From: Thermoplasmata archaeon
Lineage (GTDB): Archaea; Thermoplasmatota; Thermoplasmata; Thermoplasmatales; ARK-15
Assembly (NCBI GenBank): GCA_038729465.1
Contig: JAVYRZ010000001.1
Location: 20,512-84,511 of the forward strand
Length of the DNA: 64,000 bases
Direction: 5' to 3'
The notes under the pieces are model-generated. The model saw nothing but the letters and a program-made list of their open reading frames with translations, was not told where the DNA came from and ran no database searches. This document shows positions 36,941 through 52,188 of this stretch, piece after piece. A program made the position numbers and the translations under genes. The stretch's first letter is position 1. Each line of letters starts with the position of its first letter.

Positions 36941-37015
36941 TAGCGGGGGGTGGATTTGAACCACTGATCTACGGGTTATGAGCCCGTCGGGATTTCCTAG
37001 CTACCCTACCCCGCT
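36941..37015 (-). tRNA. Initiator tRNA-Met (CAT)
   Basis: A complete 75-base cloverleaf. Acceptor stem AGCGGGG/CCCCGCT with A1:U72, anticodon stem ACGGG/CCCGT around CTCATAA, T loop TTCAAAT, discriminator A. The A1:U72 pair and three consecutive G:C pairs in the anticodon stem mark it as the initiator, not an elongator or the Ile2 tRNA. No intron, and CCA is not encoded. The outermost T-stem pair reads A:C, a mismatch. Confidence 0.96.
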
Positions 37016-47691: not shown

Positions 47692-47758
47692 AGGATTATG
47701 AAATTGTAATCTAAAAGAAAGTGTCATTTACACTATATTTTATATTTATCATTATTAC
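47692..47758. repeat. Interspersed repeat, copy A
   Basis: About 65 bases closely similar to 48391-48455; the first 46 bases differ at five positions. Both copies contain the small hairpin AGTGT-CATTT-ACACT. The copies flank the rimI gene in the same orientation. Confidence 0.6.
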
Positions 47759-47875
47759 AAAATAAAAATTGATAATTTATCCTTTAAATATAGTAAAAAT
47801 TACGCATAATACTCGTACTTATGTTTTAAATACAATACAGGGCAAGAATAATAGAAAAAAGAGATATTAGAGTTG

Positions 47876-48390: not shown

Positions 48391-48455
48391 AGGATTATAA
48401 AGTTGCAATTTAGAAGAAAGTGTCATTTACACTATATATTTATCATTAATTACAA
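48391..48455. repeat. Interspersed repeat, copy B
   Basis: Second copy of the repeat at 47692-47758, same orientation, including the AGTGT-CATTT-ACACT hairpin. It lies between the rimI promoter and the IS110 left end. Confidence 0.6.
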
Positions 48456-48560
48456 TAATGTAAAAATTAAGTATAATACTAATTCTTTATTTAACTTAGC
48501 TTCATAATAATGGTCATTTACCAATTCTCAAGATATATCATAATTTAGGTGTCATAAAAA

Positions 48561-48759
48561 AGGTATTTGACCGCGATAACATGACGGTGTTATCGTGAGA
48601 GTCGGATATGTGGTCGATCTTTCTCTTGACACTCGAGGTCGTCTATGAGGTTGACCACTTCTTCATCTCGGCACAGTACCCTGAAACAAGGGTGAATAGA
48701 AGTTTGTCGAGATTTACGGCCCTATAATCTCTCACGAACCCACTTAATAAGGTGGGGAA
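48561..48759 (+). ncRNA. Structured segment upstream of an IS110 remnant: candidate bridge RNA
   Basis: About 200 bases, clearly more GC-rich than the surroundings, with successive stems. Stem 1 is CGCGATAACA/TGTTATCGTG (48572-48581/48588-48597, one G:U). Stem 2 is GTGGTCGA/TTGACCAC (48610-48617/48651-48658) closing a 33-base loop. Stem 3 is ACCCT/AGGGT (48678-48682/48689-48693). Stem 4 is CCCAC/GTGGG (48739-48743/48752-48756). IS110-group elements encode their bridge RNA in this position, between the left end and the recombinase ORF. The bridge-RNA call is inference from position and structure. Confidence 0.55.
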
Positions 48760-49009
48760 ATGATAATTGGATGTACATAAGGATTTGGTATACGTGACAA
48801 GGATGGAAGAAGATGGAAAAATAATAGAAGAGTGTGAAATGGAGAACAATGAAGAATCCCGGAACAAGTTTGTTGTAAAATATCTGCTTGAAATGCCAGG
48901 AATAGCACTTGAATCATCAACAACAGGTAAATATGTGGCGAAATTGTTGAGAAATGCAGGAATTGAACATTCAGGAAAGCATAAAATTAATATCTTCAAA
49001 GAGGTTTAA
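48760..49009 (+). pseudogene. IS110-family transposase/recombinase, truncated remnant
   Basis: Only the first roughly 80 residues remain of a family normally 300-400 long. The DEDD-domain start is clear: DVHKDLVYVTRMEEDGKII with the first aspartate, then IALESSTTGKYVAKLLRNAG with the glutamate. The sequence then degenerates (HSGKHKINIFKEV, stop). The native start was probably ATG 48760, preceded by AAGGTGGGG and reading MIIG; a small deletion there shifts the frame, so the visible open frame begins at TTG 48767. The downstream aspartates and the C-terminal serine domain are missing, so it cannot act alone. Confidence 0.85.
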
Positions 49010-49101
49010 ATCACTGTCAAGTAAATCTTTTTCATAGAAGATATTAGATAAAAAAATTTGCCGTATTTTCAAGCTTTCAAAAGACGACGTATGAGCTAAA
49101 A

Positions 49102-49119
49102 TTTAGAAATATTAAAATA
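49102..49119. repeat. 18-base direct repeat, right copy
   Basis: TTTAGAAATATTAAAATA, identical to 47876-47893, in the gap between the IS110 remnant and the DgcN-like gene. Confidence 0.4.
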
Positions 49120-49170
49120 TAGGTATGTGATAACATCTCACTATGGAAAACCTTAATGTGGTGATAAAAA

Positions 49171-50751
49171 ATGGAAGACGACGGTGATAGTGACGGCCAC
49201 CCAAAAGAATTTTTAGTAAATAGATCATTTTATAAAAAAATGGTATATGAGGAAATCCAAACTTTTTTAAAAGATCAAAATGTAAGGAATTTATATAGCT
49301 ATTTTGAACCTAACTTTATTTTTAACGATAAAACAGAGTTTAATGATAATGAATCGAAAGAGACTTTTTTTAAGACAAGCAATAATAATTTAAGCTATGA
49401 TTTTTCTTTGCAATATAAGATCAATAAAGAGGCAATTTACGCTATTTTTAGTTTAAGTGCAAATAAAAATAAAGTTACAAAATCATTAGGCACTTTAAAA
49501 GATAATGTAAAAATATACAATAAAAAAGATGTATCTGAAACAGGAGTCATGTATATGAAAAAGTTAGAAGATTTTATGTTAGAGGATATCAAAGTAAAAA
49601 CTTATAATAATTTATCTAATTCCCAAAGTGATATCAGTAATTTTTCAAGTGAAGGTATAATCAAGCCTTATGAATTAGAGACATATTATCCAGACCAAAG
49701 TTGGGTAGATTCAAAATTAGAGAAAGCAGTGATATTAGCTGAAGGAGTTTATGATACATCTAACGGTAAAACTGCTCATGGATTAGTTAGATTTACAAAA
49801 AGATATGATATTATAGGGTTAATAGACTCTAAATTTGCAGGAAAAGATGCTGGGGAAGTACTGGATGGAAAATTTAGAAATATACCTATACGCGCGAGCA
49901 TTAAAGAATTTTTAGATGATCATCCTGACACTTTAATTGTAGGGGCTGCTACTGATGGAGGTTTACTTCCAAAAGAGTACAGACCTTACATTATTGAAGC
50001 TTTAAAAAATAAAATTAGCGTAGTTTCTGGGCTGCATGAATTTTTAAGTGAAGATCCTGAGTTTAAAGAAATTAGTGAGGCTAACAAGGTCAAGATCACA
50101 GATGTCAGAAAGATGTTTTTACATAAATGTGATTTTTTTACAGGTGAAATTGAAAAAGTAAAAGCTAAAAAAATTGCAGTATTAGGAACTGACAGTGCAG
50201 TAGGTAAAAGGACAACATCTGTAATGTTAACAGAAAATTTGAACATGGTAGGGCACAGTACAATTTTTATAGGAACCGGGCAGACTGGATGGATGCAAGG
50301 AGCAAAATACTGTGCGTTAATAGATTCTATGATCAATGATTTTGTTGCAGGTGGTATTGAAACAGAAGTAGTAAAGGCTTGGAATGATAATCATCCAGAG
50401 TTTATAATAATTGAAGGGCAGGGGGCAATATTGCATCCTGCATATCCAGGAGGATTCGAAATTATAGCGGCCGGTAGGCCTGACGTGATAATATTGCAGC
50501 ATTCTCCAAAGAGAAAGTACTACGATGGATTTGAGAATTATCCTATCCATGACATTGATAAATACATAAAAGTAATAGAACTATTATCCGGAAAAAAGAT
50601 TGCAGCAATAACACTTAATACTGAAAACATGGCGAAAGATGAATTAGAGTACTATAAAAAATACTATTTTGAGAAATATGGGATTCCTGCAATTGCACCT
50701 TTATATGAAGGAACAAGTGAATTAGTAAAAATACTGGAAAAAACAGATTAA
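49171..50751 (+). CDS. DUF1611/DgcN-family protein with a unique N-terminal extension
   Basis: A 526-residue protein. Residues from about 185 form the DUF1611 core: a Rossmann-like half (AVILAEGVYDTSNGKTAHGL, DSKFAGKDAGEVLDGK, VGAATDGGLLPKEYR) and a P-loop half (VLGTDSAVGKRTTSVMLTE, IFIGTGQTGWMQG, IIEGQGAILHPAYPGG). The DgcN branch is D-glutamate N-acetyltransferase. The first 185 residues are Asn/Lys-rich and match nothing I know. GGTGAT six bases before the ATG supports the long form. It sits 12 bases before the MurL-like gene, so the two form an operon. Confidence 0.82.
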   Translation: MEDDGDSDGHPKEFLVNRSFYKKMVYEEIQTFLKDQNVRNLYSYFEPNFIFNDKTEFNDNESKETFFKTSNNNLSYDFSLQYKINKEAIYAIFSLSANKNKVTKSLGTLKDNVKIYNKKDVSETGVMYMKKLEDFMLEDIKVKTYNNLSNSQSDISNFSSEGIIKPYELETYYPDQSWVDSKLEKAVILAEGVYDTSNGKTAHGLVRFTKRYDIIGLIDSKFAGKDAGEVLDGKFRNIPIRASIKEFLDDHPDTLIVGAATDGGLLPKEYRPYIIEALKNKISVVSGLHEFLSEDPEFKEISEANKVKITDVRKMFLHKCDFFTGEIEKVKAKKIAVLGTDSAVGKRTTSVMLTENLNMVGHSTIFIGTGQTGWMQGAKYCALIDSMINDFVAGGIETEVVKAWNDNHPEFIIIEGQGAILHPAYPGGFEIIAAGRPDVIILQHSPKRKYYDGFENYPIHDIDKYIKVIELLSGKKIAAITLNTENMAKDELEYYKKYYFEKYGIPAIAPLYEGTSELVKILEKTD

Positions 50752-50763
50752 AAGGGAGAGGCA

Positions 50764-52188
50764 ATGGATCTAAAATGTTTTGATGAGATTTACATTAGCA
50801 ATCCTATAGTTACTAAAAACAGTATCTCTTCTATATATAAGCTAAAATCTGGGGGAAATATAAAAGAATTCAAACTTGAATTTAGGTACTCAGAGCCAAT
50901 TAATATTGAAAATATTGAAAAATTGGCAAGAATGATCGTTACTATGCCAGTGATAAATTATGGACTTTTTACAGAGTCCATATTTTTAGATTTTGAAATT
51001 GATAAAAATGACTTGAAATATTTATATGATATGCTCGAGATAACAGCTACGGATGTATTTGTAAATAAAATATGCCGCAGAAGAGCTGAATTTATAAAAA
51101 AAGAGTATTTACCAAAGCAGGAAGATATTAGAATAGAAAATGCACATAATAGAGCGAAGATATATTGCAATATTTCAGCATCAGAAAGCAATTACAAAGC
51201 AGACCCAGACCAGAATAAAGCAGCAGTTTTATCTTCTGGAGGAAAAGAGAGCCTACTAACCTATGGGTTATTAAAAGAGATCGGAGCGGAGGTATACCCA
51301 TTATTCTTTAACGAGTCTGGTGGGCATTGGAGAACCGCAATAACAGCTTATAGAGAGTTCAGCAATACTGAGATAAATACAAAAAAGGTATGGTCAAACA
51401 TAGATAGATTTTATCTTTTTATGTTAGATAATATGAAAATAATTCGTAGCGATTATAGATCTATCCGGGCAGATACATATCCTATTCGCTTGTTTATATT
51501 TGGGCCCTATATTTTCTCTTTTTTACCACTGCTATTAAAGTATAATATAGGCAACATTTTACTTGGAAGTGAGTATGATGATCCAAGAGTACCAGGAGTA
51601 TATGAAAATATACCCCATCGCTATGGAATATATGATCAAAGCGAAGAATTTGATGAGTATATGACTGACTATTTTTTTAAAAAAGGTTTTAATATCGTGC
51701 AATGGAGTGCAGTGAGGCCTTTATATGGTCTTATAGTGGTAAGAATATTATCTAACAGATATCCTCAATTATTTAAGTTACAGAGATCATGTCATTCTTG
51801 TCACATAGAGGATAAGGAGATAATACCCTGTGGCGAATGCACTAAATGTCTTGGAGTATTATCTTTCGTAATTGCAAACGGTAAGGATCCAAGAATAATA
51901 AACTATAAAAATGAACATCTTCAAAACTTTGAAAAAAATATCAACAATACAAAATTAAGGCTTGATGATGATGAGAGAGAGCACGTATTTTATATTTTGA
52001 ACAAGATGGGTTATCACATTAACGGAGCGTCTCATGAACATGTAGAAAAACTGCATTTTGACAATAAAAATTCCAAGTTAAATCACATACCAGAGATATA
52101 TAGGGATAAATTATTCAAGATATACAAAGAGTATACTAAAGGAGCCGTGTTTTTGGAAAATAACGAGTTCAAAGAGTTTATTTTTTAA
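50764..52188 (+). CDS. PP-loop protein resembling MurL-type glutamate epimerase
   Basis: A 474-residue protein with an ATP-pyrophosphatase loop AVLSSGGKESLLTYGLLKE at about 156-174, YPIRLFIFGPYIFSFLP, and a four-cysteine cluster (CHSCHIEDKEIIPCGECTKC) near 340-359. This layout recalls MurL, which epimerises a terminal L-glutamate residue in an ATP-dependent way, but I cannot confirm the assignment without a search; other PP-loop enzymes (thiolation, ligation) share the loop. GGGAGAGG precedes the ATG. It is co-transcribed with the DgcN-like gene, and both families touch D-glutamate. Confidence 0.6.
   Translation: MDLKCFDEIYISNPIVTKNSISSIYKLKSGGNIKEFKLEFRYSEPINIENIEKLARMIVTMPVINYGLFTESIFLDFEIDKNDLKYLYDMLEITATDVFVNKICRRRAEFIKKEYLPKQEDIRIENAHNRAKIYCNISASESNYKADPDQNKAAVLSSGGKESLLTYGLLKEIGAEVYPLFFNESGGHWRTAITAYREFSNTEINTKKVWSNIDRFYLFMLDNMKIIRSDYRSIRADTYPIRLFIFGPYIFSFLPLLLKYNIGNILLGSEYDDPRVPGVYENIPHRYGIYDQSEEFDEYMTDYFFKKGFNIVQWSAVRPLYGLIVVRILSNRYPQLFKLQRSCHSCHIEDKEIIPCGECTKCLGVLSFVIANGKDPRIINYKNEHLQNFEKNINNTKLRLDDDEREHVFYILNKMGYHINGASHEHVEKLHFDNKNSKLNHIPEIYRDKLFKIYKEYTKGAVFLENNEFKEFIF

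Follow-up and report, generated by a model that had tools for sequence, protein, structure and literature searches.

The stretch of DNA analysed here in its entirety (the window) comprises 64,000 nucleotides of contig JAVYRZ010000001.1 from a Thermoplasmata archaeon, and it carries at 48547-49038 an IS110-family element of 492 base pairs (bp), counting the one copy of the AG core dinucleotide at its left end. The element is homologous to one that is found across the order Thermoplasmatales. In the window copy a complete left end is followed by an intact-looking RNA, a frameshifted recombinase N-terminus, a deletion of about 0.9 kilobases and a complete right end. The original prediction had proposed a possible bridge RNA in front of a truncated recombinase at 48561-49009; the feature is larger, extending from 48547 to 49038 with a flanking core AG at 49039-49040. 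Its parts are as follows, with genomes G067 and G003 supplying the full-length copies used for comparison.

48547-49038, plus strand: whole internally deleted IS110-family element; ends taken from three near-identical full copies in G067, an exact empty site and motifs in the window
48547-48553, plus strand: left tip, AG (the core) then GTGTC, 5 nucleotides that pair with the donor loop
48554-48564, plus strand: left subterminal inverted repeat ATAAAAAAGGT; its counterpart in full copies is ATGAAAAAAGTTC
48569-48735, plus strand: predicted bridge RNA gene; covariance model R1, 150.4 bits, E 5.8e-39, the window sequence itself being among the model seeds
48571-48597, plus strand: 5' hairpin of the RNA; 11 pairs, 10 of them changed on both sides across the family
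48609-48658, plus strand: target-binding loop; outer stem 48609-48617 / 48650-48658 enclosing a 32-nucleotide loop
Within the target loop: 5' guide at about 48617-48625; inner hairpin 48626-48641; 3' guide 48642-48647 with a core copy AG at 48648-48649
48667-48711, plus strand: donor-binding loop; outer stem 48667-48673 / 48705-48711, inner hairpin 48678-48693
Within the donor loop: guide GGCAC at 48670-48674 (left tip) and guide AATAGAAG at 48695-48702 (right tip and core)
48760-48939, plus strand: frameshifted N-terminal remnant of a DEDD recombinase; 80% identity to the G003 copy, frame lost after the start
48940-48959, plus strand: deletion junction; the G003 copy has about 880 bp of recombinase gene that are absent here
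48960-49038, plus strand: out-of-frame 3' part of the recombinase gene, together with the element's right end; 83% identity to the G003 copy across 48960-49042
49025-49035, plus strand: right subterminal inverted repeat ATCTTTTTCAT; the 3-bp tip AGA comes next and ends at 49038
49039-49040, plus strand: core dinucleotide AG, adjoining the right end from the target side; placed by motif, with a single AG in the G067 empty site

The recombinase is dead, as had been proposed: its frame is broken after the start, about 880 bp are deleted, and no C-terminal domain is encoded in the assembly. The original start codon lies at 48760, and a loss of 5 bases relative to the G003 copy breaks the frame just downstream of it; the TTG at 48767 is therefore not the original start. 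An N-terminal remnant does follow the RNA, but the right end of the element had been overlooked, and because the 3' end at 48960-49038 is retained, the window element represents an internal deletion and not a simple truncation. No Pfam model matched the 80-amino-acid remnant of the window copy itself, whose homology is given by the DNA match to full copies.

Homologous full IS110-family copies with the same upstream segment are present in many relatives, and full-length relatives of both types described below (A, to which the window copy belongs, and B) encode DEDD_Tnp_IS110 and Transposase_20 domains above the Pfam cut-off. Searching the own genome with 48400-49200 returned a second copy on contig C35 at 86% identity and a right-end fragment on contig C1, and when the own genome and its relatives in the order were searched (101 genomes), matches were present in 34 and in many cases began at the equivalent of 48543-48547. 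The exact boundaries of the element are seen in G067, where three copies more than 99% identical lie at different places, beginning with AGATGTC-ATGAAAAAAGTTC and ending with GAACTTTTTTCAT-AGA followed by AG. Joining the flanks of a G067 copy at a single AG yields a 260-base sequence that is uninterrupted and identical (260/260) in three other genomes; insertion is thus exact at the AG core and entails no further duplication.

Several of these insertions merit a remark in their own right. The G067 empty site (L185 1501-1760, L186, L187) lies within a 234-amino-acid gene adjoining a gene that resembles HerA/TraG-like ATPases, and its 260 bp are identical in genomes assigned to three other genera; the DNA around it is probably another mobile element. 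The G003 full-length copy (L038 1001-2358), the recombinase of which is frameshifted, interrupts an ammonium-transporter-like gene after an FYGGLV motif. The amtB-like sequence to its left was suspected of being part of the element, and a comparison of many left flanks identified it as flank. Copies from genus g9 (L088, L093; G033) are themselves interrupted by an IS3-type (integrase-core) transposase gene. The solo right-end fragment of the own genome (G000:C1:149669-149737, equivalent to L007 1670-1738; 88% identity) sits beside an apparent decayed tyrosine-recombinase frame.

The segment preceding the recombinase remnant had been described as GC-enriched and structured, and so it is. Positions 48569-48735 have 47% GC against 33.6% for the window, a value reached by only about 1% of its 167-bp stretches, and they fold at -58.7 kcal/mol (z = -2.9; 1 of 200 shuffles equally good). 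The stems lie where they had been placed, the supposed 33-base loop measures 32 nucleotides, and the closing stem of the window RNA is weak. An Rfam scan of the whole window returned the transfer RNA at 36941-37015 alone, with no curated family reaching its gathering score for the RNA. A plain MAFFT alignment of 26 sequences served as the seed of the covariance model and contains six helices, namely the 5' hairpin, the closing stem, and the outer and inner stems of both the target loop and the donor loop. The RNAalifold consensus of this alignment missed the donor-binding loop, the columns of which hardly vary, and drew a different closing stem; a hand-named structure was tested instead. In the seed alignment 88.6% of the cells are paired, and none of 500 shuffles attains this percentage or the covariation score.

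The structure covaries strongly among related elements. In an alignment of 72 model matches (68 distinct), which was fitted to the model and is biased towards its structure, 36 of 44 pairs changed on both sides (0/500 shuffles), a result with which the MAFFT seed alignment agrees. Two-sided changes occupy 400 cells in the larger alignment compared to 127 in its shuffles, and sliding the pairing partner by 1-3 columns lowers the paired cells from 87.7% to 27-47%; neither these cells nor the elements in the permutation tests below are independent events. Of 117 genomes from the order, 39 contain a model match, with hosts that include E-plasma and Acidiplasma aeolicum; so does one genome outside the order but within the same class (class-wide sample). 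The bacterial relatives obtained by a recombinase profile search carry no convincing RNA (one at 13.6 bits, E 0.055), and for this reason the RNA family appears confined to the Thermoplasmata. Wherever a match is accompanied by a readable gene, the RNA lies upstream of the recombinase and on the same strand.

The donor loop tracks the ends of the element. In type A its 5' run GACAT is the reverse complement of the left tip ATGTC, and tip and RNA change together: ATGTC is accompanied by GACAT, GTGTC by GACAC (G003, G001), AGGTC by GACCT (G064) and AAATC by GATTT (genus g9). The 3' run ATAGAAG corresponds to the right tip and core and varies alongside them, reading ATAGGAG in g9 and ATAGTAG in type B. 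The window donor loop fits its own ends, with 4 pairs and one G-U on the left (GGCAC) and 7/7 on the right; in a smaller number of copies, often degraded ones, donor loop and tip do not match.

The donor logic in turn predicts a register for the target loop of type A, whereby the 3' guide reads like the left flank beside the AG and the 5' guide complements the right flank. Over permuted pairings, left flanks match the 3' guide with z = 8.0 (n = 55) and right flanks match the 5' guide at the predicted offset with z = 5.1 (n = 22), no other single offset being significant; permutation within clades, with one duplicated site dropped, gives z = 7.1 and 5.1, respectively. The signal comes from positions -1 to -4 on the left and from within +1 to +7 on the right, which gives one short and one long guide. 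Loop bases therefore match element ends and insertion sites at the level of the family, and together with the covariation and the full copies this bears out the bridge RNA proposed upstream of the IS110 recombinase. A structure situated directly upstream of a start codon and on the same strand could also be an ordinary leader of the recombinase messenger RNA, acting as a translational control element and not as a guide. Such a leader would not be expected to follow tip and insertion-flank sequences or to possess one hypervariable and one conserved loop, and the donor and target matches already contradict it, which leaves it extremely improbable.

We regard the segment, with a probability of roughly 90%, as the bridge RNA gene of a Thermoplasmatales IS110-family clade (type A), preserved in an internally deleted and immobile fossil copy. 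Transcription of the RNA, its binding to protein and the chemistry of recombination are what we infer from sequence. In intact relatives the RNA would act as a mirrored counterpart of the bridge RNA of IS621 (Durrant et al. 2024, PMC11208160). To the right of the AG core, the top strand would be paired by the 5' guide of the target loop (about 7 nucleotides); to the left, the bottom strand would be paired by its 3' guide (about 4 nucleotides). The recombinase would exchange strands at the AG, so that the element ends up flanked by AG on both sides.

Several observations weigh against this reading, in addition to the bias of the larger alignment (A2) given above. Target matches are imperfect, averaging about 2.3/4 on the left and 3.8/7 on the right, and for some right flanks the fit is shifted by one or two bases. 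At one fresh G067 insertion the left guide is matched at just 2/6 bases, and the target guides of the window copy agree with its own flanks at chance level. The left flank of the C35 copy at first seemed to fit the shared guides; indels in its left end make the register ambiguous, and this match was not used.

For the window copy itself a fossil is the likeliest state: its ends and donor loop still fit one another, but the recombinase is destroyed and the target loop no longer suits the flanks. The original prediction had allowed for either a fossil or an RNA served in trans, and the former accounts better for the data, since the window guides do not match the flanks and the assembly (96.8% complete) holds no Transposase_20 domain, the C-terminal part of the recombinase, and only a broken N-terminal piece. 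Could the copy nonetheless be a living non-autonomous element, similar to a miniature inverted-repeat transposable element (MITE), that contributes its own bridge RNA and ends and is mobilised by a related element's recombinase? Although the gene is gutted, the RNA and the two ends survive; the donor loop fits both tips, and a mini element of ISEc11 moves with transposase and RNA supplied in trans (PMC11187229). The assembly is moreover split into 40 contigs, one of which, C35, stops 49 bp past the other copy, so that a full copy could be missed. The lack of a Transposase_20 domain in so complete an assembly, the occurrence of the deleted form in one copy only and the chance-level guide matches nevertheless make mobilisation in trans unlikely. 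A search of the own genome for a site specified by the window guides found none at up to 2 mismatches.

Retention of the RNA for a host function after the death of the element is less probable still. When the window and C35 copies are compared, the target loop shows the highest conservation of all parts (94.7%), but the RNA as a whole and the dead coding remnant have diverged equally between them (89.3% versus 88.8% identity), and hence nothing points to selection acting on the RNA by itself. For the window copy we retain the fossil bridge RNA gene, which belongs to a well-supported archaeal RNA family equipped with exact element boundaries, an empty site and a covariance model. Candidate intact elements of this kind, carried by acid-loving archaea, lend themselves to trials as programmable recombinases.

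How does this family relate to the known groups? The features of the IS110 group (IS621 bridge RNA) and of the IS1111 group with its seekRNA (e.g. ISEc11 and IS4321; Siddiquee et al. 2024, PMC11187229) were taken from PMC11208160 and PMC11187229, in which all experimentally tested bridge RNAs and seekRNAs are bacterial. RNA position and guide order are linked to the two groups, with exceptions noted in RNA position (PMC11187229, PMC11208160), a few of them in IS1111 (PMC11187229). ISfinder elements that pair an upstream RNA with IS1111-like transposases include ISMtsp17, ISHvo10 and ISAcp5. With the IS110 family at large, the present elements share a long non-coding end occupied by a structured RNA. 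As in IS621 and the IS110 group, the RNA of type A lies upstream of a DEDD recombinase and has its variable target loop ahead of the conserved donor loop; both loops carry two guides that address opposite strands and include the core, the target loop having one long and one short guide. In contrast to IS621/IS110, guide order and ends are mirrored (the core reads AG on the RNA strand and CT on the opposite one), the subterminal inverted repeats are long, the hosts are archaeal, the recombinase falls outside the IS621 branch, and there is no Rfam model. Subterminal inverted repeats of 11-13 bp (ATGAAAAAAGTTC / GAACTTTTTTCAT), tips of 7 bp on the left (AGATGTC) and 3 bp on the right (AGA), the absence of further target duplication and a top-strand complement located 5' of the bottom-strand match are instead reminiscent of IS1111, from which type A differs by having its RNA upstream and not downstream of the recombinase. 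In a recombinase tree with IS621 and one certain IS1111 transposase, IS4321, as references, IS4321 falls apart from these proteins and beside IS621, both references sitting on long branches. The arrangement is a new variant that combines an IS110-like upstream RNA with IS1111-like subterminal repeats, 7/3-bp tips and guide order.

Type B, a set of six distinct and more divergent matches (L119, L120, L122, L124, L126 and, on the reverse strand, L039), separates these features further. Its RNA matches the same covariance model (E 3e-11 to 5e-13) and also lies upstream of the recombinase, which is 45-48% identical to a type A one; the recombinase tree places type B as sister to type A with support of 99/99 for A and 95/95 for the B branch. 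Its ends are swapped, and its donor junction is inverted with respect to the RNA-recombinase unit. Left ends read CT followed by ACTATGAAAG (with a small insertion in one), and the inverted junction predicts a right end of GACAC followed by CT, which is seen in 5/5 copies with a readable right end. The IS110 order, with the bottom-strand match 5' of the top-strand match, is reversed in type A and present in type B, whose flanks fit it with z = 3.1 on the left when small shifts are allowed (n = 6, p = 0.004) and z = 2.6 on the right (n = 5, p = 0.016).

Given that type B has the same RNA in the same place with swapped ends, RNA position and end orientation are separable. We consider it reasonably probable that guide order is not tied to RNA position, that what distinguishes these sister clades, which share the upstream RNA, is an inverted donor junction, and that the reversed order is the automatic outcome of flipping the RNA-recombinase unit between the subterminal repeats, a simple route between the IS110 and IS1111 groups. 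As the two properties vary independently here, interconversion of the groups becomes a testable question; a literature search, with most subscription papers outside its reach, returned no report of such a flip. At L039, around 1250-1500 (G083, G058), a type A element stands head to head with a type B left end, and the right tip of this type A copy is CATAGT, as in the type B end, and not CATAGA.

To the right of the window element a DUF1611 protein with both domains is encoded at 49171-50751; the next gene (50764-52188) has no Pfam match. To its left a repeat of about 70-110 bp at 47701-47813 and 48400-48468 brackets a GNAT acetyltransferase gene. The two copies are 81% identical, and the repeat, which holds the palindrome AGTGT-CATTT-ACACT, recurs at G000:C16:15690-15800 and G000:C7:63090-63175.
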